Source of the DNA: Aureispira sp. CCB-E
GTDB taxonomy: Bacteria > Bacteroidota > Bacteroidia > Chitinophagales > Saprospiraceae
Direction of reading: 5' to 3'
DNA: 64,000 bases
Assembly: GCF_031326345.1 (NCBI RefSeq)
Contig: NZ_CP133671.1
Location: 3,224,001 to 3,288,000, forward strand
Within the stretch, counting starts at the first letter, position 1; the number at the start of each line of letters is the position of its first letter. A model generated the notes under the pieces. That model ran no database searches. It was given only the letters and a program-made list of their open reading frames with translations, and was not told where the DNA came from. Made by a program: the position numbers and the translations under genes. Below are positions 21,480 to 63,921 of this stretch, one piece after another.

Positions 21480-21495
21480 CTAATTTTCTATATTA

Positions 21496-21640
21496 TAGTA
21501 GTTCGTTGATTTTTTACTTTTTTACCAAAAAGATAAAAAAGCACATTTATATTAGTTTGATAATCAAAATTTTAACATAAAATGCAACAAGGTGCAACTT
21601 GCTGATTATCAAACTAATAAAGTTTTTCAACGAACTATTG
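21496..21640 (-). mobile_element. modular element copy 1 (145 bp), 6-bp target duplication ATATTA
   Basis: The element begins TAGTAGTTCGTTGA and ends TCAACGAACTATTG. It is flanked by ATATTA at 21490-21495 and 21641-21646, a perfect 6-bp duplication. Inside is a second inverted repeat (TTAGTTTGATAATCA near 21560 against TGATTATCAAACTAA near 21603-21618). It has no coding capacity. Its body closely matches copy 2 in the opposite orientation. Confidence 0.85.
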
Positions 21641-21677
21641 ATATTAACCAGCTAATGTTTTTGGTAGACTCTATTGG

Positions 21678-22556
21678 TTATCCTTTAGCTGTTGTTTTGG
21701 TAGTAGGGGCAATTACTTTTTCTTCTACTACTTTTTCTTGCGTCTTTTTTTCTTTGCTAATTACATCTTTAGCATACAGTACCTTTGGTTTCCAATAGGA
21801 AGATTCTGACAAATTGTCTACAACAATACCACGACGTGTAGAGTGAATAATATAAACACCATCTTTTTTGTTGTCAACAACCATAGCAACATGAGTAACA
21901 CGACCTCCTTTGCCATATTTGCTAAAAAACACTAAATCGCCCGTTTTTGCTTTAGATATGTCTACATTTTGACCTTGGCGAGCTTGATAGCGAGAGCTAC
22001 GAGCAATACCAACTCCTTTTTGAGCCATGACATATGATGTAAAACCAGAACAGTCAAAGCCTTTGGGAGTCGTTCCACCCCAAATATATTTTAGACCTAA
22101 ATATTTCTTAGCTTCTTCTATAATATTGCCACGAACTCCAGAAGTGGTTAAACTATCAAAAATGGCATTATAAGCAACGGGAACACTTGGAACATTAGCA
22201 GGTCCAGCAAAGTCTAGACGGTTGTTGAGCGCATTAGCTTTTCGTTGGTTGCGTTTGCGTTTGTTGATAACAATACGCTTCAGCCCTGTAATGTCGCTGT
22301 GATCGATAAGGATGGGGGCGACTTCTTCTACAATTTCTTCTTCTGCCATTTCATCTTCAGAAATGACATCTTCATCTTCCAAGGAAACAACAGCAGATCG
22401 TGTTGCTAGTAAATTTACATCAGAATCGGATAGACTTATAGATTCTGAAACGGGAGTTGTGGGGATCAATGTAGCATGCAAAGTAACGTTGGTACCTATC
22501 AAGAAAAAAAAGTAAGTGCTAACAATTGTTGCTACAGATTTTTGGGTATATTTCAT
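21678..22556 (-). CDS. NlpC/P60 (C40) family cell-wall peptidase
   Basis: Secreted peptidase of 292 residues. The signal peptide is within the first 35 residues (VATIVSTYFFFLIG). An acidic, Glu/Val-rich stretch (about 58-85) precedes the catalytic domain, which spans about 150-265. The domain shows LGLKYIWGG, the nucleophile Cys in FDCSGF, GDLVFFSKYG, and the catalytic His in VTHVAMVV, the standard C40 order. It should cleave peptide cross-bridges of peptidoglycan, probably gamma-D-Glu to diaminopimelate bonds. A strong promoter lies 80 bases upstream. The C-terminal tail is low complexity. Confidence 0.9.
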   Translation of the reverse strand: MKYTQKSVATIVSTYFFFLIGTNVTLHATLIPTTPVSESISLSDSDVNLLATRSAVVSLEDEDVISEDEMAEEEIVEEVAPILIDHSDITGLKRIVINKRKRNQRKANALNNRLDFAGPANVPSVPVAYNAIFDSLTTSGVRGNIIEEAKKYLGLKYIWGGTTPKGFDCSGFTSYVMAQKGVGIARSSRYQARQGQNVDISKAKTGDLVFFSKYGKGGRVTHVAMVVDNKKDGVYIIHSTRRGIVVDNLSESSYWKPKVLYAKDVISKEKKTQEKVVEEKVIAPTTKTTAKG

Positions 22557-22635
22557 TACTGAAATTTTAGTTACTAATGATTAAACCGCTATTATTGTGT
22601 CTATTTTAATTAATAGCAATTTAATTTTGCGAATG

Positions 22636-22666
22636 CAAAGGTAAAAACTATTTTTATATTTCCAAA
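22636..22666 (-). promoter_or_regulatory. Bacteroidota-type promoter of the NlpC/P60 gene
   Basis: On the minus strand TTTG (22663-22666) is followed after 19 bases by TACCTTTG (22636-22643). This fits TTTG-N19-TAnnTTTG exactly. Transcription would begin near 22629, giving a leader of about 70 bases. Confidence 0.72.
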
Positions 22667-22810
22667 GCTTTGGTTTCCTATTTCCTAAGAGCTAGGAACT
22701 TACCTAAAAAGGGGGGGCTTGGTTTTGCCTTTTTTTAGGAGCTTTGATTGCGGCAATAGTAATGCCAAATTGCATGAGTAATAGAAGTAATATTAAAATA
22801 ATTTTATATA

Positions 22811-23374
22811 ATGAAAAACTGGACATTGTTTTTGGATCGAGATGGAGTGATTAATGATAGAATTGTAGGAAGTTATGTTCGCTGTTGGTCCGAGTTCAAG
22901 TTTTTGGAAGGTGTTTTGGAAGCAATGCCTATTTTGGCACGAAAATTTGACTGCATTGTTGTTGTAACCAATCAGCAAGGTATTGCAAAAGGTATTATGA
23001 CAGAGGAAGCATTAAATCAAGTTCATATTCAAATGCAAGCAAGAATAGAGGAAAAAGGAGGCAGGATTGATAACATCTATTTTTGTCCAAAACATGAGCG
23101 TGAAAACCCATTTTGCCGAAAACCCAACACGGGAATGGCGCAACAGGCTCTATCTGATTTTCCTAGCATAGATTTTAACCGTGCCGTAATGGTCGGAGAT
23201 TCGATCACAGATATTGAATTTGGTAAGGCTATGAATATGAAAACAGTTTTGTTAGAAACTAAAGTAGATATAGATGTGGTTAAATTAGAACAAATAAAAG
23301 AAAAAATAGACCATAGATATGCTAGTTTACTTGAAATGACGGATGACTTAGAGCGTATGATGCAATCATTTTGA
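22811..23374 (+). CDS. HAD-IIIA phosphatase (GmhB / histidinol-phosphatase-like)
   Basis: Cytoplasmic HAD hydrolase of 187 residues. LFLDRDGVIND (residues 6-16) carries the nucleophile and acid/base aspartates, VVTNQQGIAKG the motif II threonine region, CRKPNTGM the lysine, and MVGDSITDIEFG motif IV. The pattern is that of heptose-1,7-bisphosphate phosphatase and histidinol phosphatase. The zinc loop is short: only YFCPKHERENPFC precedes RKP, where GmhB has four ligands in a longer loop. The substrate is therefore uncertain. No heptose or histidine genes are nearby. Confidence 0.82.
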   Translation: MKNWTLFLDRDGVINDRIVGSYVRCWSEFKFLEGVLEAMPILARKFDCIVVVTNQQGIAKGIMTEEALNQVHIQMQARIEEKGGRIDNIYFCPKHERENPFCRKPNTGMAQQALSDFPSIDFNRAVMVGDSITDIEFGKAMNMKTVLLETKVDIDVVKLEQIKEKIDHRYASLLEMTDDLERMMQSF

Positions 23375-23482
23375 GGCAGTAGATTCAATCAAACACTTTC
23401 GTGGGTAGCAATTATATTTTATTGATCGTTTGTTTAATAAAGGTAGTTGCTAGACTGTTGCATGAAATAAATAAGGTATAAG

Positions 23483-24355
23483 TTGAAAGCATTACATTAC
23501 ATTTTAATTGGTTTAGTTTGGTTCGTTGGCTCAACTCTCTGGGCGCAAAATAAGACAGATATTCCATCTACTTATAGTGAAGTATGTTACTTTACCATCA
23601 ATAAAGTAGCTTTTGAGGATTATTTGGAAATAAAAAAGGCAATCGATCGAGAGGAGTACAGTAAGGTGTATGCGGCTATTCGAAAAATGAGGTCTAGTTT
23701 GAAAGGCTTTTCCCCAAGTAGCCAAAGCCGTGCTTTTGAATTGTGGTATGTTGGAAATTATACCGACTTTGATAAGCAAGCAATCGTATCTAGAGATGCT
23801 ACTTTAGCTTCTTTAAAAAATTACGAAAATCGTCTTAGAATGCGAGGTGCTTTATATTATGATCATCGTTTGTTCTTGGATCAATACTTAGCTTTTAAGA
23901 CAGAAGCTTTTTATCCAGAATATTGGTTTATGTCACAAGAACGTTATTTTTCTAGGGATTTGGTTGATTTAATTCGCCAATTAAATCCAAAGGAAGGCTA
24001 TAAACTGTTTACCAATTCGGAGTTCTTTTACCCGTTTGAGGTATTCAATGAAATGGCAACGACAGAAAATGGTGAAATCAAGGATTATTTAGAAACAGAC
24101 GATTGGGGAGCAGATACGACTTCTTTTATTCCTTATAGTTATATGACAATAGGAAAGGGAACGGCAAGCTTTATTTTAGAGTCGTTTAATCTGGACGATG
24201 CGACACAAGAGATTGATCTCAATCGAGAAGTTCGTGCTCTAAGGCGTTTTTTGACCAATGCCAAAACAGGAAAAATTTACTTTGTAGCTCGATTTAATCA
24301 TTTAGAAATACGCAAAATGAAAGCAATTGAAGCTCGCAAAAAGCGAGATAAGTAG
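23483..24355 (+). CDS. uncharacterised secreted protein
   Basis: Protein of 290 residues reading from a TTG codon, with AAGG upstream; no ATG would keep the signal peptide, so TTG is the likely start. The signal peptide is ALHYILIGLVWFVGSTLWAQ. The mature part is helical, with aromatic-rich stretches (FYPEYWFMSQERYFSRDLVD, NSEFFYPFEVFNEM), and no domain I recognise. It precedes the first of the three DUF4369-type thioredoxin genes, but 200 bases separate them. Confidence 0.62.
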   Translation: MKALHYILIGLVWFVGSTLWAQNKTDIPSTYSEVCYFTINKVAFEDYLEIKKAIDREEYSKVYAAIRKMRSSLKGFSPSSQSRAFELWYVGNYTDFDKQAIVSRDATLASLKNYENRLRMRGALYYDHRLFLDQYLAFKTEAFYPEYWFMSQERYFSRDLVDLIRQLNPKEGYKLFTNSEFFYPFEVFNEMATTENGEIKDYLETDDWGADTTSFIPYSYMTIGKGTASFILESFNLDDATQEIDLNREVRALRRFLTNAKTGKIYFVARFNHLEIRKMKAIEARKKRDK

Positions 24356-24568
24356 TTCCTTGTTTAGGATTTTGATTGATAACATTTTTTTAACTAGTTT
24401 TTTAGTTTTAAAACTGTACTTTTAGTGCAATAATATAAAAGTGTTTCTAATAAGGTGTAAAAAGACTTATCACGAATGGATTATAAAACCATTTGTTGTT
24501 GGACTAACTAAGTTTGGTAGCAAGCATTTTTTAATAAAAACCAATTTTTTTTGACAAAAAGAGATAGA

Positions 24569-26050
24569 ATGAATCAATTACTTAGACGATCGTTGTTGTT
24601 GATATTAACTGTAATGGCAGTTAATTTTGCCACCGCACAAGAGGGGTATAATATTCGTGTAAAAATTGACGGATACGAGAATGATACTTGTATTTTGGGA
24701 TACCGTTTAGGAAAGAAAACGTATGTAAAAGATACTCTAACAACTAGAAATGGGGGAGATGAATGGGTTTTTAAAGGAGATGAGCCGCTAAAAGGTGGAA
24801 TTTATTTGATTTTGACAAAACCTGAGAACTTGTATTTTGAATTTTTGGTGCCCAATGACGAGGACCAAAAAAAGATGTCTCTTTATACAAAGATGGACGA
24901 AAATAAAGATTTGAGTAAGCACCTCAAAATTCAAGGTTCGGCTGATAATAAAGCTTTTTTAGATTACTTGAAGTTTTTGGCAAAAACAAGAGAAAAAGAT
25001 ACAAAATTAGGAAAGAGTATTGAGGCGGAAACCAATCCTGATAAGAAAAAGAAATTGCAAGAAGAACGAGTAGCAATAGGAGGTTCAGTAAAAGATTATC
25101 AGTTAAACTTAATCAAAGAACATCCAGACTATTTATCCTCTAAATTGATTGCTGCATCTATGCAACCAGAGGTGCCAAAAGAATACGATCGTGCACAAGG
25201 TTTTTACTACTATCGGGCACATTATTGGGATAATTTTGATTGGACAGATCCTCGCTTGATTCGCACACCTATTTTTAAAGACAAATTGGAGTTTTGGACA
25301 GAAAAACTAGCCGTGCAAGTTCCAGATTCAGTTATTCTTGCTGTAGATTATGTCCTAGAGAATTTACTAAAAGGCAAAAACAAAGAGATGTTTCAATATG
25401 CTGCTGCGGAGTATTTGAATAAATATGCTCAAACAAAAGTTATTTGCATGGATGCTGTGTATGTATTTTTGGGTGAAAAATACTACTGCGCAGGTCATGC
25501 CGATTGGGTTGATTCCTCTCAATTGGTTAAAATTTGTGAAAACGTTGCTACACTAAAGCCACTACAATGTGGATTGTATGCTCCAAACATTCGTTTGAAA
25601 AAGTTGGATGGCACACCCATTAATCTACACGAGGTAAAAGCAAAGTTTACAGCACTTTATTTTTGGGATCCAGATTGTGGAAATTGTAGCAAAACAACCG
25701 ATAAGTTAGTACCCGTTTATAATAAATATAAGGACAAAGGGTTTGAAATTTTTGGAGTTTGTAGCAAAAGCTGGAAGGAAATTGATAAGTGTAATGCCAA
25801 GGTAAAAGATAAGGGGATGGATTTTATCAATACTTCTGATGAGGCTTACCCATTGGCTGTTGCTAAAAAAATATATGACATCAAAGTGAATCCTTATTTG
25901 GTCTTGTTAGATGAAAATAAGAAGATTATGTGGAAACGCATTGATCCTAAGCAATTGGAAGATATTTTGAAACGCGAATTTGGGCTAGAGGATGATACGA
26001 CTAAGAATCCAAGCCTAAAAGAAAAAGAGAAAGAACAAAAGCCTGAATAG
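24569..26050 (+). CDS. DUF4369-DUF5106-thioredoxin (TlpA-like) exported protein, paralogue 1
   Basis: About 493 residues from the ATG at 24569; a TTG at 24551 is less likely. The signal peptide is LLRRSLLLILTVMAVNFATAQ. Residues 25-130 are a DUF4369-like beta domain (VKIDGYENDTCILGY), residues about 130-330 a DUF5106-like helical domain (AHYWDNFDWTDPRLIRTP, ICMDAVYVFLGEKYYC), and the last 150 a thioredoxin fold. The active site is FWDPDCGNCSK, a CxxC within the usual W-x-P-x-C-x-x-C frame, followed by the cis-proline region VNPYLVLLD. It is expected to act in periplasmic thiol-disulfide chemistry. The C terminus is a Lys/Glu tail. Two close paralogues lie downstream. Confidence 0.86.
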   Translation: MNQLLRRSLLLILTVMAVNFATAQEGYNIRVKIDGYENDTCILGYRLGKKTYVKDTLTTRNGGDEWVFKGDEPLKGGIYLILTKPENLYFEFLVPNDEDQKKMSLYTKMDENKDLSKHLKIQGSADNKAFLDYLKFLAKTREKDTKLGKSIEAETNPDKKKKLQEERVAIGGSVKDYQLNLIKEHPDYLSSKLIAASMQPEVPKEYDRAQGFYYYRAHYWDNFDWTDPRLIRTPIFKDKLEFWTEKLAVQVPDSVILAVDYVLENLLKGKNKEMFQYAAAEYLNKYAQTKVICMDAVYVFLGEKYYCAGHADWVDSSQLVKICENVATLKPLQCGLYAPNIRLKKLDGTPINLHEVKAKFTALYFWDPDCGNCSKTTDKLVPVYNKYKDKGFEIFGVCSKSWKEIDKCNAKVKDKGMDFINTSDEAYPLAVAKKIYDIKVNPYLVLLDENKKIMWKRIDPKQLEDILKREFGLEDDTTKNPSLKEKEKEQKPE

Positions 26051-26210
26051 TTTTATTGGATTAACGAAGTTCATGAAATGAATACGCTAATGCAAGGTTA
26101 TCATTTCGGAAAGCTCTTGTTTGAATATGCCTTGGCGGTCCTAGATGGTCAAGGCATATTTTGTTAAAAATAAAATGATAACATTTGTTTAACTATATTT
26201 TTAGTTTTAA
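26051..26210 (+). other. intergenic DNA with a copy of the upstream region of paralogue 1
   Basis: TGATAACATTTGTTTAACTA and the AT-rich bases after it (26177-26210) closely match DNA at 24377-24415 upstream of paralogue 1. This suggests the duplication that made the two paralogues included part of the leader. Element copy 2 has inserted at the end of the match. Confidence 0.5.
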
Positions 26211-26356
26211 CAATAGTTCGTTGAAAAACTTTATTAGTTTGATAATCAATAAGTTGTAGATCTACTATATTTTGCGTTAAAATGTTGATTATCAAACCAA
26301 TATAAATGTGCTTTTTTATCTTTTTGGTAAAAAAGTAAAAAATCAACGAACTACTA
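26211..26356 (+). mobile_element. modular element copy 2 (146 bp), target duplication TTTTAA
   Basis: It begins CAATAGTTCGTTGA and ends TCAACGAACTACTA, flanked by TTTTAA at 26205-26210 and 26357-26362. The inner inverted repeat is TTAGTTTGATAATCAA near 26233 and TTGATTATCAAACCAA near 26285. It lacks the GC-richer palindromic module seen in copy 4. It sits in the leader of paralogue 2. Confidence 0.85.
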
Positions 26357-26646
26357 TTTTAAAATACTATGTTTAAATCAAAGTAGGTAAGTGGGCAGAA
26401 AAAAATATAGCTAAAAAATAGGCTTGTTTTTTATATGGTTTTTCTGAACGATTACTTATTTTAACCTTCTTCATCCGCACATTTAAAGGGGAGAAAAGTA
26501 GTTTTCTCTAACAAATGCTTTGCTCAAAAAATAAGTATAACAACGCTATTTTATGTTTTGTAAATCAAACAAAACAGGAATTGCTATGCTGTATTTATGC
26601 AAAGGTTTATAATGTAATTAATTAATTCACATATAAACAAAATGCG

Positions 26647-28107
26647 ATGAAACAATTATTGAATCGTTGGGTTCTGCTAGGAATCCTATTATTTATGTCC
26701 ACACTTGTTGTTGGGCTTGACAAAGAAGGGTACAATATCCGAGTTCGTATCGATGGGTACGAAAACGATACTTGTATTTTAGCACATCATTATGGTGACA
26801 AAAAGTACATCAGTGCCACGGTCACCTCCAGAAATGAAGACAATGAATTTATCTTTGAAGGCGCAGAACCGCTCAAGGGAGGAGTCTATTTAGTATTGAT
26901 TAAAGATAATAATAACTACTTTGAGTTTTTAGTGTCCAATGAAGAAGATCAAAAAGACATGGTACTAAGTACTAAATTGGACAAAAGCAAGGACTTGAGC
27001 AAACATTTAAAAATTAAAGGCTCGAAGGATAATGACGCTTATTTAAACTACATGAGGTTTAATGCTAAAATTCAACAAAAAAAAGCTGTATTGCAGGAAA
27101 AAATTGTAGCTCAAACTCAGAAGAAGAAGAAAGAAAAATTAGAAAAAAGCTTAAAGTTGTTGGATAAAAAATTAAAAGCTTACCAGCTCAAAGCAATTGA
27201 AAAAAATCCTGATTTTTTGAGTTCAAAAATTATTGCCGATTGGATGGTTCAAGAAGTACCTGAATCTGTTCAATCAGATAAGTTAGCATGGTTTTACTGG
27301 ACACGAGCACATTTTTGGGATAATTTTGATTTTTCAGACGAACGGTTGATCCGAACTCCTTTGTTCAAACACAAAATGGAAGTTTTTACAGAACAATTGA
27401 CGCCTGCAAATCCAGATTCTATTATTGTTGCGGTAGATGCTATCTTGCGGCGAACCAAAGAAGGGAAAAATAAGATCATGTTTCAATATGCAGCATCAGA
27501 ATTGTTCAATAAATATGCAAAAAGCAAGATTATTTGTATGGATGCTGTGTATGTATTTTTAGGCGAAAAATATTACTGCTCTGGAGGTGCAGATTGGGTA
27601 GACTCGGCACAACTTGAGAAAATTTGTGCTAATGTGGCTTCCATAAAGCCGTTGCAATGTGGGTTGTATGCTCCCAATATTCGCCTAAAAAAATTAGATG
27701 GAACCCCGATTAGCTTGTATGATGTAAAAGCAAAATACACTGCAATCTATTTTTGGGATCCAAGTTGTGGAAACTGTAGCAAGACGAGCGATCGATTGGT
27801 ACCTGTTTATCACAAATACAAAGACAAAGGGTTTGAAATCTTTGGAATTTGTAGCGATAGTTGGAAAAATTTGGATAAATGCAAAAAAAAGGTAGCTGAA
27901 AAAGGAATGGTATTTATCAATACTTCTGAAAAAGCTTATCCTTTGGCTGTTGCCAAAAAATATTACGACCTAAAGGCTAATCCGTATATCTTATTGTTGG
28001 ATGAAGATAAAAAAATAATGTACAAACGGGTTGATCCGCAACAAATTGATGCTATTTTAAAACGAGCATTTGAACAAGAAAAGACAGAGCTTGATCAAAA
28101 AGAGTAA
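26647..28107 (+). CDS. DUF4369-DUF5106-thioredoxin exported protein, paralogue 2
   Basis: Protein of 486 residues with the same three-part architecture as the gene upstream, and many identical stretches (VRIDGYENDTCIL, ICMDAVYVFLGEKYYC, LQCGLYAPNIRLKKLDGTP). The signal peptide is WVLLGILLFMSTLVVG. The thioredoxin active site is FWDPSCGNCSK. The central region is more lysine-rich than in paralogue 1. It is the likely product of a tandem duplication, as part of the upstream DNA is also shared. A terminator follows closely. Confidence 0.86.
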   Translation: MKQLLNRWVLLGILLFMSTLVVGLDKEGYNIRVRIDGYENDTCILAHHYGDKKYISATVTSRNEDNEFIFEGAEPLKGGVYLVLIKDNNNYFEFLVSNEEDQKDMVLSTKLDKSKDLSKHLKIKGSKDNDAYLNYMRFNAKIQQKKAVLQEKIVAQTQKKKKEKLEKSLKLLDKKLKAYQLKAIEKNPDFLSSKIIADWMVQEVPESVQSDKLAWFYWTRAHFWDNFDFSDERLIRTPLFKHKMEVFTEQLTPANPDSIIVAVDAILRRTKEGKNKIMFQYAASELFNKYAKSKIICMDAVYVFLGEKYYCSGGADWVDSAQLEKICANVASIKPLQCGLYAPNIRLKKLDGTPISLYDVKAKYTAIYFWDPSCGNCSKTSDRLVPVYHKYKDKGFEIFGICSDSWKNLDKCKKKVAEKGMVFINTSEKAYPLAVAKKYYDLKANPYILLLDEDKKIMYKRVDPQQIDAILKRAFEQEKTELDQKE

Positions 28108-28133
28108 TAGCTTTTTTTTAAATAACAAATGGA

Positions 28134-28168
28134 AGCCACACAGAACTAGATTTTGTGTGGCTATTTTT
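28134..28168 (+). terminator. terminator of paralogue 2
   Basis: AGCCACACAGAA pairs with TTTTGTGTGGCT (12 bp, one G-T pair) with a 5-base loop, followed by ATTTTT. From here to 28508 (about 340 bases) no gene is seen; a small hairpin CCCCT / AGGGG lies at 28465-28486 in the leader of the next gene. Confidence 0.82.
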
Positions 28169-28508
28169 ATAGATATGAATACTTATTTATGATAAAAATG
28201 TCCTTTTGTTTTATTCCTAATAAAAGGCAATGAAGATGCTGAATGAAAGAACGTAGTTGTTCTAGGGGCTTTTAAAGTGGCTTTGTATCGAGTAATAAGC
28301 ACTTGGTTAGAGTCATTATTATAGAACGGATAATTATAGGGGAAGATTAAAAAAAACGTTGTTTTTGTTGAAAAATAAAACTACTTTGCTGGTCTAATTT
28401 TTATATTTAATTTTTTAGTTAAACCTCAAAAGAGTATATAACTATATTTATATTATTGTTTAATCCCCTGTCTCTAAAATTAGGGGCAAACCAAAACCAT
28501 ATTTTATT

Positions 28509-36076: not shown

Positions 36077-36104
36077 TCAACGACCACACAGTAGCTAACT
36101 ATTG
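36077..36104 (-). repeat. fragment of the modular element family
   Basis: Read on the minus strand, the segment is CAATAGTTAGCTACTGTGTG then GTCGTTGAA. It matches the first 37 bases of copy 4 with an internal deletion of about eight bases. No flanking duplication is visible. Confidence 0.5.
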
Positions 36105-39725: not shown

Positions 39726-39786
39726 TAGTAGCAGCGAGCCCAGCTTGTTGGTTGATGACTGCAAGGAGTAACTAAGCTAACTATTA
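39726..39786 (-). mobile_element. modular element copy 3 (61 bp), near-perfect target duplication
   Basis: It starts TAGTAGCAGCGAG and ends AGCTAACTATTA. The flanks are TATAAG (39720-39725) and TGTAAG (39787-39792), a 6-bp duplication with one mismatch. Only the palindromic end modules remain; the AT-rich core of copies 1 and 2 is missing. Confidence 0.6.
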
Positions 39787-42867: not shown

Positions 42868-43084
42868 CAATAGTTAGCTGCGCTGCTACTACGTGGTCGT
42901 TGAAACCACGCAGTAGCAGCGAAGCTAACTAAAAGCGCAGCGCTCACGAAGTAAACTTTATTAGTTTGATAATTAATGAATTATAATTCTAACGCATTCT
43001 GTGGTAAAATTTTGATTATCAAACTAATATGAATGTGCTTTTTTATCTTTTTGGTGAAAAAGTAAAAAAAACAACGAACTACTA
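42868..43084 (+). mobile_element. modular element copy 4 (217 bp), perfect target duplication AGACAA
   Basis: It begins CAATAGTTAGCTGCGC and ends CAACGAACTACTA, flanked by AGACAA at 42862-42867 and 43085-43090. It has two parts. Bases 42872-42930 form a 26-bp stem (two mismatches, 7-base loop) rich in GC. From about 42953 the sequence follows the AT-rich body of copy 2, with inner inverted repeat TTAGTTTGATAAT near 42960 and TTGATTATCAAACTAA near 43012. It fills the gap with no gene. Confidence 0.88.
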
Positions 43085-45234: not shown

Positions 45235-45400
45235 TAGTACTTTACAAAAAATTTAAAAAGTATCTTTGCATAGTTTTGATTATCAGTTTTTTAAATAGTA
45301 ATGGTGTGTTCCGTTGATAATCAATTGAGCAGCGCTCATAAAGTGAACGGATACGATTTAGCTCTGTTCACTACTACTTCGTGGTTCCCGCGAAGTAAAG
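45235..45400 (-). mobile_element. modular element copy 8 (166 bp), target duplication TTTAAG
   Basis: It begins TAGTACTTTAC and ends GCGAAGTAAAG, flanked by TTTAAG at 45229-45234 and 45401-45406. Read in reverse its ends agree with those of copy 6 (CATTACTTCGTGG and CACGAAGTACTA). It contains TTGATTATCA near 45276 and TTGATAATCAA near 45314, plus GAGCAGCGCTC. The end sequence is more diverged than in copies 1, 2 and 4. Confidence 0.62.
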
Positions 45401-46206: not shown

Positions 46207-46435
46207 TAGTCGTTCGTTGATTATTTTATGAGATCGCTTCGCTTAGTTACCTGCGGTGCTACTTCGTGGTAGTTCGCTACGCTCATGACCTTGGGCTTTT
46301 GTGCTATTAGCACAAGCCTACTCGGCAAGCTTAGTTACCAAAAAGACAAAAAAGAGCATTTGTATAAGTTTAGCTGCGTGAGTGCTTTGCTTTTAGTTAC
46401 CTGCGGTGCTACTTCGTGGTTTCAGTAAACTATTG
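46207..46435 (-). mobile_element. modular element copy 5 (229 bp), near-perfect target duplication
   Basis: It begins TAGTCGTTCGTTGA and ends AAACTATTG, flanked by TTGCGT (46201-46206) and TTACGT (46436-46441). Two identical 28-base stretches at 46243-46270 and 46393-46420 (TTAGTTACCTGC to ACTTCGTGGT) are nested within it. A hairpin GGCTTTTGTGC / GCACAAGCC lies near 46288-46312. It stands between the DsbD-like and stress-protein genes. The following gap to 46863 shows no gene. Confidence 0.72.
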
Positions 46436-55072: not shown

Positions 55073-55108
55073 AATAAGTTAGCTATGTTGCTACTTCGTG
55101 GTCATTAC
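55073..55108 (+). repeat. fragment of the modular element family
   Basis: AGTTAGCTATGTTGCTACTTCGTGGTCATTA resembles the first 35 bases of copy 4, lacking some of the palindrome. No flanking 6-bp duplication can be identified. Confidence 0.45.
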
Positions 55109-56043: not shown

Positions 56044-56091
56044 ATGAATTAATTTTTCTTTTCTTAAGAACTGATTTGAATCCAACTATTT

Positions 56092-56668: not shown

Positions 56669-57664
56669 ATGGATACAGTTTATAATACTTTAAAATTACA
56701 TATAGATAACGTAACAGATGCTACTTTTGAGTCCACTGCATTGACCGTTTTTCGTTATCAAGTCCAAAATAATCCACTTTACCAAGAATTCATAAATTTG
56801 CTAGGGCTTTCGGTCGAAGCAGTTACAAAAATGCAGCAAATTCCATTCCTTCCTATTCAGTTTTTTAAATATCATACGATTAAAACAAAAGAATGGCTAC
56901 CTGAAGCTACATTTACAAGTAGTGGAACAACTTTGCAGAATCCTTCCAAGCATTATGTTCGCTCTTTGGATTGGTACAATCAATGTGCTTTCAAAGCCTT
57001 TGAGCAAGTTTATGGAGCATTAGAGGATTATGTCGTTTTAGCTTTATTGCCTTCGTATTTAGAACGGCAAGGTTCTTCACTGGTTTTTATGGCAGAACAA
57101 TTTATTCAACGTTCTCAACATCCTTCTAGTGGTTTCTTTCTATATAATACGGATGAATTGATGGAGGTGTTGGGTGCTTGCCAAATAAAAAAACAACGTG
57201 TCCTATTATTAGGAGTGACTTATGCCTTATTGGATTTAGCGAAGGATTATCCTCAAGCTCTAAAAAACGTTGTTGTTATGGAGACAGGGGGTATGAAAGG
57301 GAAACGAGCTGAAATGACAAAAGATACGATTCATGAGGTTCTAAAAAGAGCTTTTGAGTTAGATGCCATTCATTCGGAGTATGGTATGACAGAGTTGTTA
57401 TCACAAGCCTATTCAAAAGGAGGGGGGATATTTCAACCAAGTCCAACCATGCGGGTTTTGATTCGAGAAACTACAGATCCTTTTCATATTCTTTCAACCC
57501 AAAAAACAGGGGGAATCAATATAATAGATTTGGCAAATATTGACAGTTGTAGTTTTATTGCGACTGATGATTTAGGAAGGTGTTATGAGGATGGAACCTT
57601 TCGTGTGTTGGGGCGTTTTGATGCCAGTGATTTGAGAGGCTGTAATTTGTTGATAGGAGAGTAG
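56669..57664 (+). CDS. LuxE/PaaK-like acyl-activating enzyme
   Basis: Protein of about 331 residues from the ATG at 56669 (MDTVYNTLKLHI); a TTG at 56648 is weaker. The ATP-binding TSSGTT loop (in ATFTSSGTTLQNPSKHYV, about 90) and IHSEYGMTELLSQAY near 240 match the LuxE acyl-protein synthetase and phenylacetate-CoA-ligase type of adenylate-forming enzymes, here without the C-terminal extension. LuxE activates fatty acids for luciferase, but no lux genes are here. In Bacteroidota such solitary proteins are often linked to acyl or polysaccharide chemistry. Substrate unknown. Confidence 0.8.
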   Translation: MDTVYNTLKLHIDNVTDATFESTALTVFRYQVQNNPLYQEFINLLGLSVEAVTKMQQIPFLPIQFFKYHTIKTKEWLPEATFTSSGTTLQNPSKHYVRSLDWYNQCAFKAFEQVYGALEDYVVLALLPSYLERQGSSLVFMAEQFIQRSQHPSSGFFLYNTDELMEVLGACQIKKQRVLLLGVTYALLDLAKDYPQALKNVVVMETGGMKGKRAEMTKDTIHEVLKRAFELDAIHSEYGMTELLSQAYSKGGGIFQPSPTMRVLIRETTDPFHILSTQKTGGINIIDLANIDSCSFIATDDLGRCYEDGTFRVLGRFDASDLRGCNLLIGE

Positions 57665-57828
57665 GATAGAAAAACTGTTATGAAATGGATTGAAATATTA
57701 GAAATGAAGTATTTACAATATAGTGTGCTTATTGAAGAAGCAGTAGATTAAAGAAAAGTCTTAATTTAAAAAATACTTGATTTATCTTTTTGTTTTTTGT
57801 AACTTACAAAACGTATTATTCTTTATTT

Positions 57829-58097
57829 CATTACTTCGTGGAAAAATCATATTGGTTTAGCTTTGTTACTCCCTACGGTCGTGAGCTCGCACAGCTCGGT
57901 TCGCTGCTACTACGTGGTACTTCGTGAGCGCTGCGCTTTTAGTTAGCTGCATTGCTGCTGAGTGGTATCGCATGAGTGCCTTGCAGTTGATTATCAATAG
58001 AGTATGTTTTTTTATTGTTTGGTTTGTTAAATAATTAATAATCAGGCTGATGCAAAGGTGCCTTTTAAGTTTTTGACAAAAAAGTCACGAAGTACTA
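57829..58097 (+). mobile_element. modular element copy 6 (269 bp), perfect target duplication TTATTT
   Basis: It begins CATTACTTCGTGG and ends CACGAAGTACTA, flanked by TTATTT at 57823-57828 and 58098-58103. It is the longest copy. Inside are GCTGCTACTACGTGGTACTT, GCGCTGCGCTTTTAGTTAGC and a GTTGATTATCAATAGAG stretch, modules shared with copies 4 and 5. The element ends 24 bases before the next coding start. The 160 bases before it (57665-57822) show no gene. Confidence 0.75.
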
Positions 58098-58121
58098 TTA
58101 TTTTACACTCAATTTCTACCA

Positions 58122-58703
58122 ATGACGGAATTACTATTATCCTCACAACGATTAGCAGAACAAAAGGTATGGTGCACAGGGAAATTAGATTTATTTGACG
58201 CCCTACAAAAACATCATAACTTAAAAATTATAGATTTTGCTGCTGAGTTGCCTCAAGAGTCCATTTTTTTGGAATGGAAGGAAGTGCAAACGCCTGTTAC
58301 ACCAGCTAGTGTTAGTGACTTAGTTGGCAAAAAATTGACAGAATATAAGTTCCAGTATTTGGGGCAGTTGTCTTCTAATGGCACCTTGGTTGAGGTTGAA
58401 AAAGAAATCTTTCAAGCTGACTTTCCTGAGCAAAATATTTCAAAAACCTCTTTGGATAGTACAGGAAGTTTGAATTGTACTTGGTTGTTAGATTTTGTAA
58501 TGAATGCGCCTGCTATTCAGGAGGATACTCTACGCAATGAACGCTTGATTTGGAGAAAGGAGAAGGAAGGGTTTGTACTAGCGTTGTCTAGAGAAAGCAC
58601 GGATGGAAGACATGCAGAACAGGAAAAATTCATTTTTGATGCAGAGCTGAAGGTTGTAAATTGGGAGCATCAAATTTTATTTTGTGGGCAAGAGGTAGGT
58701 TAA
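58122..58703 (+). CDS. uncharacterised protein
   Basis: I do not recognise this 193-residue protein. It has no signal peptide or membrane segment. An ATG start at 58122 is clear, just after element copy 6. The sequence contains KLTEYKFQYLGQLSSNGTLVE and ERLIWRKEKEGFVLALSRE, mixing alpha and beta segments, and several tryptophans. It looks cytoplasmic. It is convergent with a TPR gene, with a perfect hairpin between them. Confidence 0.6.
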   Translation: MTELLLSSQRLAEQKVWCTGKLDLFDALQKHHNLKIIDFAAELPQESIFLEWKEVQTPVTPASVSDLVGKKLTEYKFQYLGQLSSNGTLVEVEKEIFQADFPEQNISKTSLDSTGSLNCTWLLDFVMNAPAIQEDTLRNERLIWRKEKEGFVLALSRESTDGRHAEQEKFIFDAELKVVNWEHQILFCGQEVG

Positions 58704-58737
58704 TAATCCTTCAATGGATTGCAAACCATCAATAGGT

Positions 58738-58780
58738 AATTAGTAAGTAGAACGGTATTAAATAGTTCTACTTACTAATT
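58738..58780. terminator. perfect 16-bp hairpin between convergent genes
   Basis: AATTAGTAAGTAGAAC at 58738-58753 pairs perfectly with GTTCTACTTACTAATT at 58765-58780. It lies between two stop codons and is probably a bidirectional terminator, although no T run follows. Confidence 0.7.
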
Positions 58781-58794
58781 GCTTGATAAATAAA

Positions 58795-59964
58795 TTACTG
58801 TGGGCTTTTTTCTTTGATGAAGTCAGCAAGTTTGTCTTTTTGTTGTAATTTGATTAATTTTTCAATTGCCCTATTCTTGCCTAAAATTTTCTTATTCTTC
58901 TCGTAAAAAGCAATGACCAATTCTGTACCTGCTATATAGCTTTTGTATTTGTCGTCTAAATCTCTTGTTTTAATTTGGTAAACCGAAGCACCACCTAAAA
59001 AGATAATCAAGTATTCTGGTGCTTCCTTAATGTAAGGAGAGATGGCTTCAGAAATTTCTACGGATACAGTAGGACTGCCAATAACCCATTCAATCAAGAA
59101 TTTCTCAAGTGCTTTTCGTTGCTCTTTATTTTCGTTAGGAGGAGTTTCCATTAAATAAACCACTCCACTAATAAAATCATTTTCATAGCGTAAGTAATCT
59201 GCCTTGGTTTCAAGAACAAAATCCTTTTCTTTTTCTAACTCTTTGGAATCTCCAAAAAATTGCAATTCTAGCTTTGGGTCTAATTTAGCTCCTTTTTCTT
59301 TGGCAAAACCTAGAAACTTTTTAGCATTTTCATCATCTTTCTGATAGTAATAAATATAACCTGTTAGTAAGTAACCATCTGCTAAATGATGAGAATCGGT
59401 CGCTTTATAAATCTCAACAGCTTTATTTGCATTGCTTAAAGCTAAATCCAACTTTTGTTGACTCATATAAATATTGGCCATTCCAAAATAGCTTTCAGGA
59501 TCATTTTCATTAATTTCTGCTAAAGTTTGATATTCTTTTAAAGCAGCATCAAAATCGCCTTGTATGGAATAGATTAAAGCTAAGTTTTGGTGAGCCATTG
59601 GGCCTTGTGGATAAATTTTAATAGATTTTTTGTTGTATTCTATTGCCTTTTCTGTATTTCCGCTTTTTCTATAAAGGACGGCAGCATTATCATAAGCTTC
59701 TACAAATTTAGGATCCTTTTTGATAGCCTTGTTATAGTATTTAATAGCATTATCATAATCTCTTTTATTAAAATATTCAACAGCTGTTTGATAATGTTTA
59801 CTGGCTTCGGGAGAAGTTGTTCCTCCATACATATCTGTGCTAGACGATGTAACAACAGAGGTGCCAGTGGTAGTTATAACTGTTTCTTTTTCTTTGTTTT
59901 GAGCAAATGAATTAGACTGTAAAAAGAAGAGTAGAACGAAGGCAACATAAAACATTTTTTTCAT
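58795..59964 (-). CDS. exported TPR-repeat protein
   Basis: Protein of about 389 residues from the ATG at 59964 (MKKMFYVAFVLL); the upstream in-frame ATG at 60000 is less likely. A signal peptide ends near SNSFAQ, then a Thr/Ser-rich linker. About five TPR units follow (YNKAIKKDPKFVEAYDNAAV, AIEYNKKSIKIYPQGPMAHQ, ALKEYQTLAEINENDPES) in residues 60-220. The C-terminal 160 residues are helical, without a recognised domain. A periplasmic scaffold is likely. Confidence 0.8.
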   Translation of the reverse strand: MKKMFYVAFVLLFFLQSNSFAQNKEKETVITTTGTSVVTSSSTDMYGGTTSPEASKHYQTAVEYFNKRDYDNAIKYYNKAIKKDPKFVEAYDNAAVLYRKSGNTEKAIEYNKKSIKIYPQGPMAHQNLALIYSIQGDFDAALKEYQTLAEINENDPESYFGMANIYMSQQKLDLALSNANKAVEIYKATDSHHLADGYLLTGYIYYYQKDDENAKKFLGFAKEKGAKLDPKLELQFFGDSKELEKEKDFVLETKADYLRYENDFISGVVYLMETPPNENKEQRKALEKFLIEWVIGSPTVSVEISEAISPYIKEAPEYLIIFLGGASVYQIKTRDLDDKYKSYIAGTELVIAFYEKNKKILGKNRAIEKLIKLQQKDKLADFIKEKSPQ

Positions 59965-60155
59965 GGTTATAGGTTTAAGTGTTAATAGAATTGAATACAA
60001 GTAACAGGTGCGTGCGGTTGTTAAATTTTGCTAAAGTCCCAAAGATGTAAGACACACATTATTTATACTAATAAAGATATGAATAAAATGTAGTAAGTAA
60101 CCTATTTAAGTTTATTTTAACTATGCCATGTTTACGATCATTTTAGTAAACATAC

Positions 60156-60743
60156 TTACTCTTTTACCCGTTTGAGGATAACTTTTTGGGTGTTGATGAC
60201 CTTAAAACTTGTAACCGTATCTACTGCAAAATCTTGCCCTTTGTAAGTAGAGTAAGTTTTGGATGACAAAGGAAAGGAAGCAATTTCAAAGTGGATGTTA
60301 TGCCCTACTTTTCTTGTAATCCCATACAAACCCAAATTGCCAACTTCAAAATAATCATAAAAGGCATCGTCTAAGAGGATGCGATCTAATAAAATACCAT
60401 TGTTTTCATCCATAATAAAATGATTTTTAGGCATAGAGTCATGTCGAGTAAGGGCATAGTCTTTAATAATTTCCTTGCCATTAAAAATAGCCTTGGAATA
60501 CCATCGCCAACGATTGACAGTATCTGTTTCGCTAATAATAACCGTCATGGGCAATTCCATTGTTTTCCCTTTTTGAGCATTAAATAATTCCAAATTACCT
60601 TGATATTTGCCCAACCAATCCTCAGGAAATTGAGCCATTGATTTAGAAGGAAGGTTCTTAGAATGATGTAGTTTTTGGGAACTTGGATTACAAGCTAGGA
60701 AAAATAAAACGATGCCTAGCCATAATGTGTTGAATAGTTTCAT
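60156..60743 (-). CDS. putative lipoprotein of unknown function
   Basis: About 195 residues from the ATG at 60743, where MKLFNTLWLGIVLFFLAC gives a lipoprotein signal. The open frame to 60824 overlaps the upstream flavoprotein gene and is rejected. The mature domain is beta-rich with WLGKYQGNLELFN, RWRWYSKAIFNG, GILLDRILLDDAFYDYF and LGLYGITRKVG. I do not recognise it. It follows the flavoprotein gene by 19 bases and is likely co-transcribed. Confidence 0.72.
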   Translation of the reverse strand: MKLFNTLWLGIVLFFLACNPSSQKLHHSKNLPSKSMAQFPEDWLGKYQGNLELFNAQKGKTMELPMTVIISETDTVNRWRWYSKAIFNGKEIIKDYALTRHDSMPKNHFIMDENNGILLDRILLDDAFYDYFEVGNLGLYGITRKVGHNIHFEIASFPLSSKTYSTYKGQDFAVDTVTSFKVINTQKVILKRVKE

Positions 60744-60762
60744 TGGAGTTATTATTGATGTA

Positions 60763-61911
60763 TTACCAAAATGCCTTTTGAAAAAGACGCATAAGGAAAG
60801 TATTTTTTGAAGCGATATTTGCAAAGCTATTGATTAACCACGGTCGATTGGCAATTGCTCGCTGTGTAAAGTAGTGTATTTTATGTTCTTTCCATAGCTT
60901 ATCATAGACCATTTTGTTATAAGCTTTCATATTTTTAGCGGAGAAATCTTTTTGTTCAAAGCATTTTTTAGCTTGCCATCCTGCGTAACGCCCAGAAATA
61001 ATTGCTTGTCCAATTCCTTCTCCCGACAACGGATCAATTAAGGAGGCAGCATCTCCACAAAGCATAAAACGTTGTCCAGAAATCGTAACTTTTCTAGACC
61101 CCAAAGGAAGACCATAGCCTTTGGGAGGATCAATTAATTCTGCTGCTTCAAAACGCTTTTTTAGGTAAGGCGTCGTCTCAATGATACGAGTTAACTCTTT
61201 ACGGAGATTGATTTTTCTGTCGCTAACTGTTTTAGAAAGCATTCCTAAGCCGACATTAGCATAACCATTAGGCAAAGGAAAAATCCAAAAATAGCCAGGC
61301 ATCAAGTCTTTTAAATAATGTAGTTCAAACGTCTTGTTAGGAATATCTTTTACATTTCGATAGTAAGCACGGACAGCGGCAGAGTTGTGCCTCAAATCAA
61401 CTTTATTGCTAGTTAGTTGTTTGGATACAATCCCTTGAGCGCCATCACAGCCTATGATGATTTGAGCTTTTAGCACTTGACCGTTTTTTAATACGGCGAT
61501 AGCTTGGTCATTGTCTGTCTCTACTTTAGATACTGCTGAGCCAATAAAAGTAGTGACATTGGATAATTGCTGGGCATGTTGAAATAAGAAGTTGTCCAAA
61601 TGGACACGCATGGAAATAGCCCCCTCTTTAGGAAAATTTAAATCAATATTTTTTTGATTGGGCGCAACAACTCGTAAGGTTGTAACAATTTCTTTTTCCC
61701 TAAATGCTTCAAACGAAGTTTTATAACTAGGATGAATGGTATTTAAAACATTAGGAACATAAGGTGCCACAGCATCTCCACAGATTTTATCTCTAGGAAA
61801 GCCCTTTTTGTCAATTAATGCAACTTTAAGTCCTGTGTTTCCCAATGCCAAAGCACAAGTACTTCCTGCTGGTCCTGCACCACAAATAATAATGTCAAAA
61901 GACGTTTCCAT
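60763..61911 (-). CDS. geranylgeranyl-reductase family FAD-dependent oxidoreductase
   Basis: Flavoprotein of 382 residues. The FAD Rossmann motif is IIICGAGPAGSTCALALG (about residues 6-23), followed by KKGFPRDKICGDAV, a sequence typical of the geranylgeranyl reductase family. LCGDAASLIDPLSGEGIGQA near 285 is the second FAD-binding motif, and GYFWIFPLPNGYANVGLGM lies in the substrate domain. Members reduce isoprenoid chains or oxidise small molecules; the substrate here is unknown. It lies 39 bases after the carboxylase gene, with a tiny element copy between. Confidence 0.87.
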   Translation of the reverse strand: METSFDIIICGAGPAGSTCALALGNTGLKVALIDKKGFPRDKICGDAVAPYVPNVLNTIHPSYKTSFEAFREKEIVTTLRVVAPNQKNIDLNFPKEGAISMRVHLDNFLFQHAQQLSNVTTFIGSAVSKVETDNDQAIAVLKNGQVLKAQIIIGCDGAQGIVSKQLTSNKVDLRHNSAAVRAYYRNVKDIPNKTFELHYLKDLMPGYFWIFPLPNGYANVGLGMLSKTVSDRKINLRKELTRIIETTPYLKKRFEAAELIDPPKGYGLPLGSRKVTISGQRFMLCGDAASLIDPLSGEGIGQAIISGRYAGWQAKKCFEQKDFSAKNMKAYNKMVYDKLWKEHKIHYFTQRAIANRPWLINSFANIASKNTFLMRLFQKAFW

Positions 61912-61931
61912 AAGTTTTATTTACTTTCTTT

Positions 61932-61956
61932 TAGTTAGCAGCGCAACTAACTATTG
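61932..61956 (-). mobile_element. minimal modular element copy 7 (25 bp), target duplication TTCTTT
   Basis: The 25 bases from TAGTTAG to CTAACTATTG form a 7-bp hairpin. TTCTTT flanks it at 61926-61931 and 61957-61962. It is the smallest copy and equals the very ends of the family joined together. The bases 61951-61953 are the TAG stop codon of the carboxylase on the minus strand, so this element ends that gene. Confidence 0.7.
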
Positions 61957-63921
61957 TTCTTTGATTCTTAATAATAAAGTCCCTTTAGCAATAGCGCTTC
62001 CTTCTGTTACTAAAATTTCCTCGATACAACCATTTTCTTGGGCAACGATTGTGTTTTCCATTTTCATAGAAAGCAATGTAATAAGTGCTTGCCCTTCTTG
62101 AATCTGCTGCCCAACCTCAACATTAATCTTTAATACCTCGCTGGGCATGGGAGCCAAATAATCACCTTTTGCTTTTTCTGATTCAATAATGGGGAATTGG
62201 GGTATTAAGGTTGTTTTTAGTTGACCATAATTCAAATGATGAATATAATAATCATGATCCAATGACTCTATGTGTACCTTGTGCTGCCACCCATTAATAG
62301 CAATAGACAAGGTTTTGTGTGTATGGCTGATGAGTTTAACATTATAGTTTTTCGTTTGAATGTTTATATCAAAAGCTGTATTTTGATATTGATAATGAAC
62401 TACAATAGGAACCTCTTTTACCAAATAGGATTCTTGTTGAGGTTGATAAAAGTTGTTACGCCAACCCGATGCTAAAGTAGGAATTAAGGTGCGTTTTTGT
62501 TGCCTTTGTTGCCAACGATACAATAAGGAAGCAATGAGCGCAATCGTTTCTCCTTCTGCTGCTTGAGTGGCTAGTTTTTGAAAGTCAAATTCCTGCTCAA
62601 TAAAATTAGTATGATAAGCCCCTACTTGGACAGCCTTATTTTGCATCAAGGCTAATAGAAAGGTTTGATTGGTAAGCACACCAAGGCATTTTAAGTGTTT
62701 TAAGGCATATTGCATTTTTCGAATAGCGGTAGAACGATTTGCTCCATGTGCAATAATTTTTGCTAGCATAGGGTCATAGTAGATGCCAACTTCTGACCCT
62801 GATTGAACCCCAACCTCATATCGAACCCCATCTATATTGGCTGTTTTCCAATGTAAAATTTTACCCACAGAAGGGAAGAAGTTATCACTAGGATCTTCAG
62901 CATACAAACGGCATTCTATGGCATAACCGTGACTACTTACAGCTTCTTGTTGGAGGGGCAAAGGCTGTCCTTCAGCAACAAGTATTTGCCATTCTACCAA
63001 ATCAAGCCCTGTGATCATTTCCGTAACAGGATGCTCTACTTGTAGACGAGTATTGACCTCTAAAAAAAAGAACTCCTGCTCTTCTGTTAAGATAAACTCT
63101 ACTGTACCAGCATTATCATAATTAATTGCTTTAGCAGCTAAAACAGCTGCGTTTCCCATTGCTGTTCTAAGCTGATTCGATAAGCTAGGGGAAGGGCTTT
63201 CCTCGATGACTTTTTGATAGCGGCGCTGTATACTACATTCTCGTTCTAATAAATGCAAGACATTGCCCTGTTGATCTCCAAAAATTTGAAATTCAATATG
63301 CCTAGCATTTTTGAAATATCGTTCTAAGATAACGCTTGAATTGCCAAAACTATTTTGAGCTTCTTGTTGAGCAGCGAGTAAGGCAGACTTGATTTCGTTT
63401 TCTTGATAAGCAATACGCATTCCCTTGCCACCGCCTCCAGCAACTGCTTTGATTAGAACGGGGTAACCAATCCGATTGGCTTCTTGAATTAACTGGTCTA
63501 GAGATTGGTGCTCGCCTTGGTAGCCCGGAATGGTTGGAACACCATGCTCTTGCATGATGGCTTTTGCGGTAGATTTTAAGCCCATTTTTTGGATGGCATC
63601 AGCATTAGGACCAATAAAAATAAGCCCTTCTTTTTGGCATCGAAGCGCAAAATCAGCCTGTTCTGATAAAAAACCAAATCCAGGATGAATCGCATCGGCT
63701 TGAGTTCTTTTGGCCGCAGCAATGATTTTATCTTGAACTAAATAGGATTCTTTGGCGGATTTGCCACCTAATGCAATGGCTTCGTCAGCATCGTGTACAA
63801 AAGGTAAATTCTGATCAGGTTCTGAATAAACGGCAATACTTCTAATCCCTAAACGGCGACATGTTTTGATAATTCGAGTAGCAATTTCTCCTCTATTGGC
63901 AATTAAGATAGATTGTATCAT
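61951..63921 (-). CDS. biotin-dependent acyl-CoA carboxylase alpha subunit (methylcrotonyl/propionyl/acetyl-CoA type)
   Basis: Protein of about 656 residues from the ATG at 63921 (MIQSILIANRGEIATRI); an ATG at 63939 would add six residues. Biotin carboxylase occupies residues 1-445: GGGGKGMRIA (ATP loop), LEVNTRLQVEHPVTEMITGLDLVEWQ and RLYAEDP. A short middle region follows, and the last 80 residues are a biotinyl domain with the attachment lysine in LLSMKMENTIVA. The length and arrangement suit 3-methylcrotonyl-CoA carboxylase alpha, but propionyl-CoA carboxylase is possible. The carboxyltransferase gene is not in the window. Its stop codon lies in element copy 7. Confidence 0.9.
   Translation of the reverse strand: MIQSILIANRGEIATRIIKTCRRLGIRSIAVYSEPDQNLPFVHDADEAIALGGKSAKESYLVQDKIIAAAKRTQADAIHPGFGFLSEQADFALRCQKEGLIFIGPNADAIQKMGLKSTAKAIMQEHGVPTIPGYQGEHQSLDQLIQEANRIGYPVLIKAVAGGGGKGMRIAYQENEIKSALLAAQQEAQNSFGNSSVILERYFKNARHIEFQIFGDQQGNVLHLLERECSIQRRYQKVIEESPSPSLSNQLRTAMGNAAVLAAKAINYDNAGTVEFILTEEQEFFFLEVNTRLQVEHPVTEMITGLDLVEWQILVAEGQPLPLQQEAVSSHGYAIECRLYAEDPSDNFFPSVGKILHWKTANIDGVRYEVGVQSGSEVGIYYDPMLAKIIAHGANRSTAIRKMQYALKHLKCLGVLTNQTFLLALMQNKAVQVGAYHTNFIEQEFDFQKLATQAAEGETIALIASLLYRWQQRQQKRTLIPTLASGWRNNFYQPQQESYLVKEVPIVVHYQYQNTAFDINIQTKNYNVKLISHTHKTLSIAINGWQHKVHIESLDHDYYIHHLNYGQLKTTLIPQFPIIESEKAKGDYLAPMPSEVLKINVEVGQQIQEGQALITLLSMKMENTIVAQENGCIEEILVTEGSAIAKGTLLLRIKEQ

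Follow-up and report, generated by a model that had tools for sequence, protein, structure and literature searches.

Results

Elements of the family in the Aureispira window

The window analysed here is a stretch of 64,000 nucleotides from the marine bacterium Aureispira sp. CCB-E, bases 3224001-3288000 of a 7.31-Mb chromosome in a genome that reaches 7.39 Mb with its 77-kb second contig. A TamL protein is indicative of Bacteroidota. Scattered through it are copies of a miniature inverted-repeat transposable element (MITE), many of which contain short, separately bounded modules, here designated a, b, b', c, d, e and f. An initial annotation made from the sequence of the window had pointed out eight segments bounded by 6-bp direct repeats, six of them exact and two with one mismatch, and all eight were verified together with their repeats.

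Two of these segments are module-free copies of the MITE core, one of 145 bp at 21496..21640 on the reverse strand (exact duplication atatta) and one of 146 bp at 26211..26356 on the forward strand (ttttaa, exact). A forward copy of 217 bp at 42868..43084 (agacaa, exact) possesses three modules: a 22-bp module a in the left terminal repeat (42876..42897, reverse strand), a second 22-bp module a at core site 15 (42905..42926, forward) and an adjoining 26-bp module e (42927..42952, forward). The element at 45235..45400 (166 bp, reverse strand, tttaag exact) is of the CTTTACTT/AAGTACTA type. The multi-module element at 46207..46435 (229 bp, reverse strand, ttgcgt/ttacgt with one mismatch) contains two variants of module a with the end CCGCAGGT (46249..46270 and 46399..46420) and a diverged module e (46373..46398), all on the reverse strand, together with a TTTTGTGCTA hairpin module on the forward strand (46291..46336). 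Modules are nested in the forward CATTACTT/AAGTACTA-type element at 57829..58097 (269 bp, ttattt exact), where a module d inside a module-a copy (57863..57900), a module e (57919..57944) and a diverged module a (57945..57966) all lie on the reverse strand. The remaining two segments are short, namely a 61-bp element with a module-d-like remnant at 39726..39786 (reverse strand, tataag/tgtaag with one mismatch) and an end-to-end remnant of 25 bp, the shortest element, at 61932..61956 (reverse strand, ttcttt exact).

Five further decayed copies had also been proposed. Two are recognisable, at 11142..11219 with a diverged module a at 11198-11219, and at 55081..55102, a diverged module a on the reverse strand within a decayed copy. 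A third, at 36078..36104, is a short remnant consisting of a shortened module a between CAACG and AACTATTG. The fourth matches the TTTTGTGCTA hairpin only (18926-18952), and the last, at 4515, is a short look-alike by eye with no match in the module library.

A MITE family with 6-bp target duplications

The end pattern CAACGAACTAYTR gave 146 + 150 = 296 matches in the 7.39-Mb genome, against 1 + 2 for a reversed-pattern control. Many of the other counts were made in a genome sample of 2.464 Mb, about one third of the genome. Among 7527 loosely matched end pairs in this sample, exact flanking repeats of 4, 5, 6, 7 and 8 bp occurred 48, 23, 54, 17 and 1 times, whereas 46, 13, 3.6, 1.0 and 0.3 were expected for the same end pairs. 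Since the observed repeats, set against the expected ones, peak at 6 bp, the length of the target duplication is 6 bp.

The core of the MITE is an AT-rich hairpin of 146 bp with imperfect terminal repeats of about 14 bp. Inverted repeats are present at the termini (CAATAGTTCGTTGA / TAGTAGTTCGTTGA), and the consensus fold of 15 copies contains 11 consecutive end pairs. Three sister end types were found, CAATAGTTCGTTGA/TCAACGAACTACTA, CATTACTTCGTGGA/TCCACGAAGTACTA and CATTACTCCGTTGA/TCAACGGAGTATTA. The listed elements with an exact repeat range from 25 to 373 bp and are too short for a transposase gene. For the core alignment, 78 of 118 candidate spans aligned well enough to the 146-bp core; many of these lack a duplication (22 are exact, 31 within one mismatch), and their scattered insertions were set aside. 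The core loop (alignment columns 45-59) is far more variable than the remainder; in 5 of the 15 copies a stem pair within these columns is G-C, and in another 5 it is A-U. We do not claim an RNA function of the core, as only 3 of 48 consensus pairs showed a double-sided change. A comparison of the core with plasmid and phage collections gave no match.

The position of the elements relative to genes was studied with 45 strict elements from the sample, which had been selected by exact duplications, so that their duplication rate is no evidence in itself. Only one lies mostly inside an open reading frame (ORF), compared with 84% of random placements, and hence the elements avoid genes. The earlier statement that all copies are intergenic holds for most of them, 41 of the 45 touching no ATG-initiated ORF of at least 100 amino acids, but it is not strict because the 25-bp remnant at 61932-61956 overlaps the 3' end of the ORF at 61951-63939.

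An empty site in a sister strain

The genome of strain CCB-QB1 differs from that of CCB-E at 2395 of 490,879 aligned bases (0.49%), so that the two belong to one Aureispira species or to very close ones. At CCB-E position 2307563, CCB-QB1 possesses, between two copies of AACTTA, a complete element of 294 bp in which the modules run a, c, a, e, b, a, whereas CCB-E has an empty site with a single AACTTA in surrounding DNA that otherwise matches. Among the differences listed for the compared stretches, no other whole element of this family is cleanly present in one strain and absent from the other. The initial annotation had stated that a lack of empty sites in related strains would refute it, and this one clean case speaks in its favour. 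Together with the genome-wide duplication counts, it supports the description of the family as non-autonomous, modular, mobile and generating a 6-bp duplication. The family is a recently active MITE with well over a hundred copies in the Aureispira genome.

Other mobile sequences also differ between the two strains. A second, unrelated MITE-like family, starting with AGTAATCGTTCA, has a 157-bp member at 1102414 in CCB-E that is absent from CCB-QB1; relatives of this family (contexts 122349, 994239, 1311126 and 5329720) carry module a before AA. Ordinary insertion sequence activity is also recent, because insertion sequences differ between both strains at 1131553 and 1279681 (1457 bp only in CCB-E and 1158 bp only in CCB-QB1).

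Module borders and a shared rule of insertion

The 22-bp module a (ACCACGNAGTAGCAGCGNAGCT) is found at core site 15 and in both terminal repeats, at core site 138 on the right and, reversed, at 7/8 on the left. Core site 83 and, in reversed orientation, the mirror point 28 are occupied by the 22-bp module c (AACTGCGNAGCACTCACGNAGT). Module b (34 bp) occurs at core sites 117-120 and, like module b' (35-36 bp), at 129/130. Module e (26 bp) is mostly preceded by another module, such as a. The 20-bp module f was met in elements of the CATTACTCC type and also in a hairpin repeat, and module d (about 38 bp) is located inside module a. As written, every module begins with A and most end with T. The modules almost always lie directly 5' of AA, which on the opposite strand is 3' of TT. 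They occur next to one another, within one another and also in repeats unrelated to the MITE, and they are flanked by no duplication of more than 1 bp.

The AA rule was judged on copies in the CCB-E sample and on loci from congeners. With a search pattern that has wild cards at positions 7, 15 and 18, module a gave 123 matches in the sample, followed by AA in 109, by the AGCT of a nested module in 10 and by other bases in 4. The next bases were AA or AC (mostly a following module) for c in 20 of 23 copies, for e in 33 of 35, for f in 16 of 17 (all AA), for b in 17 of 18 and for b' in all 6. We then examined the borders by joining the 12-bp flanks of each module and searching the sample for an empty counterpart, with joins shifted by 2 bp as a control. 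Empty counterparts were found for 54 of 113 module-a contexts, compared with 9, 9, 0 and 0 in the four shifted joins; for c in 8 of 21 (4, 3, 0 and 0), and for e in 14 of 32 (at most 4).

At least three repeat settings besides the MITE contain filled as well as empty copies. The first is the second MITE-like family, with module a between aataacaagt and aaaacagcc, and the second is a hairpin repeat with modules a and f. The third is a dispersed tandem unit (CACCCCAATTAAAACCC) of about 90-100 bp, in which five copies (6028279, 2114113, 2114528, 5264114 and 5264229) are filled between CACCCC and AATTAAAACCC by a 25-bp variant of module c and at least 20 are empty.

The differences in element length had originally been put down to the presence or absence of modules. 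The modular design stands, but presence or absence of MITE segments is not the whole account: the GC-rich modules are sharply bordered inserts that follow one insertion rule. The list of modules given at that time was partial, and its inner inverted repeat belongs to the core.

Module differences between strains and probable gene conversion

Comparison of CCB-E with CCB-QB1 indicated several places at which a single module differs, module a at 1035925 and 3250225 and module c at 6113906 and 2069885. The difference at 3250225 concerns the window element 26211-26356, which in CCB-QB1 has a 22-bp module a between 26225 and 26226. A hairpin repeat differs by modules a and f jointly (5018879/5018917), and the adjoining sequence shown has one mismatch. 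A b-type module differs at 28031 and 2312594, and b is exchanged for b' at 1035910 and 6113755.

Within 14 elements from one 388-kb stretch, 56 of 1613 bases differ between the strains (3.5%), compared with 40 of 8400 in the flanks (0.48%). Because the element interiors thus differ sevenfold more than their flanks, gene conversion probably reshuffles the modules. The divergence is patchy, at 4.5-9% in four elements and none in five, and ectopic conversion among many copies would give such a pattern. In elements of 45 bp a single module a joins the left end to the right end. Judged by this structure they look like deletions, presumably from recombination between module a at core site 15 and module a at site 138, and the 28-bp elements look like a similar collapse within module a.

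A CGNAG motif in the modules

The modules contain the motif CGNAG, the N of which varies in a, c, e, f and b. For module a the counts are A49 C45 T26 G3 at position 7 and C68 T28 A26 G1 at position 18, and their variability was tested with 21 of 37 22-mers that had been picked by context, as well as with 104 copies for which either half of the pattern was left free in turn. At the second CGNAG of module a, the flanking pair (n=104) is C-G in 12 copies, A-T in 3, non-Watson-Crick in 7 and G-C in 82, about 11 of the last being copies split by module d in which the base is not a true partner; part of the remaining G-C cases is subfamily inheritance. In the whole genome, complementary flanks of CGNAG are 1.25 times as frequent as expected, compared with 0.95-1.04 for seven control pentamers. 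The GNA class does not stand out among all triloops, although the most enriched heptamers are CCGCAGG and GCGCAGC. Within the limits of the pair counts, C-GNA-G with complementary flanks and a free N is present in the modules. The sequence d(GCGNAGC) forms an extraordinarily stable DNA mini-hairpin that is used in aptamers and sensors. The hairpin reading of the modules is a lead, not a result.

Modules beyond the MITE and the genus

Module a is present in 4 of 8 genomes of the genus, with 243 matches in CCB-E and 91, 43 and 77 in three congeners (G001, G003 and G006), compared with 0 for the controls; none was found among 52 other genomes of the same draw. Two pairs of module a in G003 are 22 bp apart, as expected of tandem copies. 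The three congeners showed no excess of the end of this MITE (1, 4 and 5 matches, compared with 6, 12 and 3 for the controls).

The GTDB genomes were scanned with a 21-base pattern that includes AA, which gave at least 120 loci (L183-L302) and figures that are lower bounds. These loci do not count towards the AA rule because AA was part of the pattern. Named records with the same repeats are mostly from Aureispira, and 38 of the at least 120 loci come from records not labelled Aureispira, all of them Bacteroidota by title. By our own estimate, about 0.1 matches to such a pattern would be expected by chance in 257 Gb. We rejected the idea that module a is common across the phylum, as only CCB-E itself matched among 395 Bacteroidota genomes, a draw without a congener. 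Because some Bacteroidota records outside Aureispira match and this draw gave CCB-E only, module a is real but sporadic outside the genus. At five loci in other Bacteroidota (L229, L231, L245, L250 and L259) it lies within repeat-like stretches of the GTCATTTCGACCGAAGGGAG and GTCATTCTGAACTTGTTTCAG types, which are presumably widespread repeats; the GTCATTTCGACCGAAGGGAG-type stretch itself holds CCGAAGG.

Search for the enzymes of movement

A transposase gene bounded by the same ends was not found in about one third of the genome. To look for such an autonomous partner, the 2.46-Mb sample was searched for ends that lie 600 to 6000 bp from each other and are flanked by a 6-bp repeat with no more than one mismatch. 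This yielded five distinct long end pairs, of which the 912-bp one appears on both strands. Eight ORFs of at least 150 amino acids in them were searched, and none is a transposase: they encode a tryptophan synthase alpha chain, an S-adenosylmethionine synthetase, TPR proteins, a DUF4197 protein, a Por_Secre_tail protein and two proteins without a family. The five long end pairs are read as chance because their tested ORFs held no transposase.

The MITE ends are absent at the 12 of 42 DDE_Tnp_1 places inspected and at 5 multi-copy ORF families in the sample. The DDE_Tnp_1 insertion sequences inspected were rejected as a partner, as they have other ends and, where resolved, repeats of 8 to 10 bp. 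Further matches in the genome are to rve (four), to a reverse transcriptase (one) and to a Y2_Tnp stretch that contains stops (one); no MITE ends surround the single one of the four rve matches that lies inside the sample. A search of the whole genome for Y1_Tnp, the domain of the RAYT transposases, gave no match at E 0.001 or better, while the same search was positive in 5 of 14 control genomes.

Discussion

A proposed two-layer explanation

We consider it probable that two layers of mobility, together with conversion, deletion and possible hairpins, account for these elements. In the first layer, a transposase acting in trans would insert the MITE into AT-rich intergenic DNA with a 6-bp duplication, an insertion for which the empty site is direct evidence. 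In the second, cassettes of 20 to 38 bp with the borders observed above would be inserted site-specifically 5' of AA. Once in one copy, the modules would be spread and reshuffled among MITE copies by ectopic gene conversion and carried along by transposition of the MITE, and the strain comparison supports both steps. Judging from the structure of the short elements, recombination between two module copies in one MITE would yield the 45-bp elements, and collapse within module sequence may yield those of 25 to 28 bp. The cassettes may work by way of single strands folded into C-GNA-G hairpins. More tentatively, and at somewhat less than even chances, the modules may represent a class of Bacteroidota cassettes, 20 to 38 bp long and built from C-GNA-G mini-hairpins, whose folded single strands would be integrated 5' of AA by a non-RAYT activity and which would build up within MITEs and within each other, with MITEs as their vehicles.

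Several results weigh against this explanation. The searches described above revealed no transposase with these ends and no enzyme that would insert the modules. AA does not follow 2 of the 10 module-a copies in congener loci, and the borders of f and b are less sharp than those of the other modules (empty counterparts in 10 of 12 contexts for f compared with up to 9 in shifted joins, and in 8 of 14 for b compared with up to 7), a weakness of the test that is partly due to A runs. At the non-MITE strain differences examined, filled and empty copies coexist in the genome. With both kinds of copy available as donors, none of the strain differences on its own demonstrates a new insertion; gene conversion could explain the non-MITE differences, which may be gains or losses. 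The hairpin part is further burdened, beyond the split copies counted above, by an N that is invariant in the six b' copies, by a first CGNAG of module a with no double change (A-T in 96 of 104) and by a first loop base G that is A in 16 of 123 module-a copies. Extra folding stability was not found (z from -0.96 to 0.19 against shuffles, for seven strands of five modules) with standard DNA parameters, in which an extra stability term for GNA loops may be lacking; GNA hairpins as an energy signal are therefore unsupported, folding being no better than for shuffled sequence.

Alternative explanations

The modules might not be mobile by themselves but be old parts of a longer ancestral MITE that were differentially lost, with conversion spreading the losses. 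Copies with and without modules do coexist, conversion-like divergence among copies is evident, and the 45-bp copies resemble internal deletions. However, module a occurs at three core sites, in both orientations, beside and around other modules and in at least two other repeat families, and a variant of module c occurs in a further repeat. In congeners that possess module a, the end of this MITE is not in excess, and 38 of the at least 120 module-a loci lie in Bacteroidota records not labelled Aureispira. The exact loss of 22 bp without flanking direct repeats is also hard to explain by slippage. We regard this explanation as unlikely.

Replication template switching, in which a stalled polymerase copies 20 to 38 nt and returns at an AA microhomology, would produce modules with no dedicated enzyme. 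Hairpins stall replication, the AA at the right could serve as a two-base microhomology, and no Y1 transposase was found in the genome, all of which would suit such a process. Variable ends would be expected from it, whereas the left border of module a is constant across unrelated contexts in CCB-E, its left flanks show no obvious common microhomology, and the whole unit recurs in other genera (where the right border is fixed by the search pattern). We give template switching about the same low credence as differential loss.

Movement of REP/REPIN-like modules by a RAYT (IS200/IS605-like Y1) transposase would agree with their size, the hairpin-like motif, the lack of a long duplication and the short fixed sequence adjoining the insertion. 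For the present genome it is disfavoured because of the missing Y1_Tnp match, found by the same search in 5 of 14 control genomes, and we consider it very improbable. Accidental 6-bp repeats and similar ends in AT-rich intergenic DNA, to which the AT-rich nature of the six duplicated bases might point, are refuted by the 54 observed repeats compared with 3.6 expected, the peak at 6 bp and the clean empty site, and deserve practically no credence.

Relation to known repeats

The present family resembles the bacterial MITEs RUP, Nezha, Correia/NEMIS and ERIC (PMC3049150, PMC3116915) in being short, AT-rich, intergenic and strongly folded, with terminal inverted repeats, a target duplication and presumed mobilisation in trans; it differs in the 6-bp duplication, in that no partner insertion sequence was found and in an interior of separately bounded cassettes. 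Like the pneumococcal BOX element (PMC3049150), it is a composite of a few subsequences with many copies per genome. In contrast to BOX as outlined there, several dissimilar modules occur at different fixed points, nested and also in unrelated repeats. A boxA-boxB(n)-boxC order was not found, as the modules vary in order, number and orientation. With the REP/REPIN sequences and their RAYTs (PMC3116915, PMC3733652), the modules share the form of 20 to 40-bp hairpin repeats that are mostly intergenic, whereas here no Y1 transposase is found in the genome and cassettes are stacked in and beside one another.

We found no description of this family in the open-access literature, a coverage that leaves most subscription journals outside. 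Modules a, c and e look like the small dispersed repeats (SDR) of cyanobacteria, which Elhai et al. reportedly described in 2008 as mobile repeats of 21 to 27 bp, nested in other repeats and moving by an unknown mechanism. This is a statement of resemblance, not of kinship: the phylum is different, and the 5'-of-AA rule, the CGNAG with a variable N and the differences between near-isogenic strains set the present modules apart.

Modular repeats (BOX), REPINs and MITEs are already known, as reportedly are nested very small repeats (the cyanobacterial SDR). The combination of a shared insertion rule, the CGNAG motif, cassettes stacked on a MITE and differences between near-isogenic strains was not found in the open-access literature searched, and there is a real chance that the modules form a distinct class of mobile cassettes. 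The way in which very short, non-coding repeats move in bacteria has been a question for a long time. The present system, with its many sharply bordered modules, its simple rule of insertion and two near-isogenic strains distinguished by single 22-bp modules, makes this question testable, and conversion among MITE copies can serve as an engine that shuffles short structured DNA beside genes.

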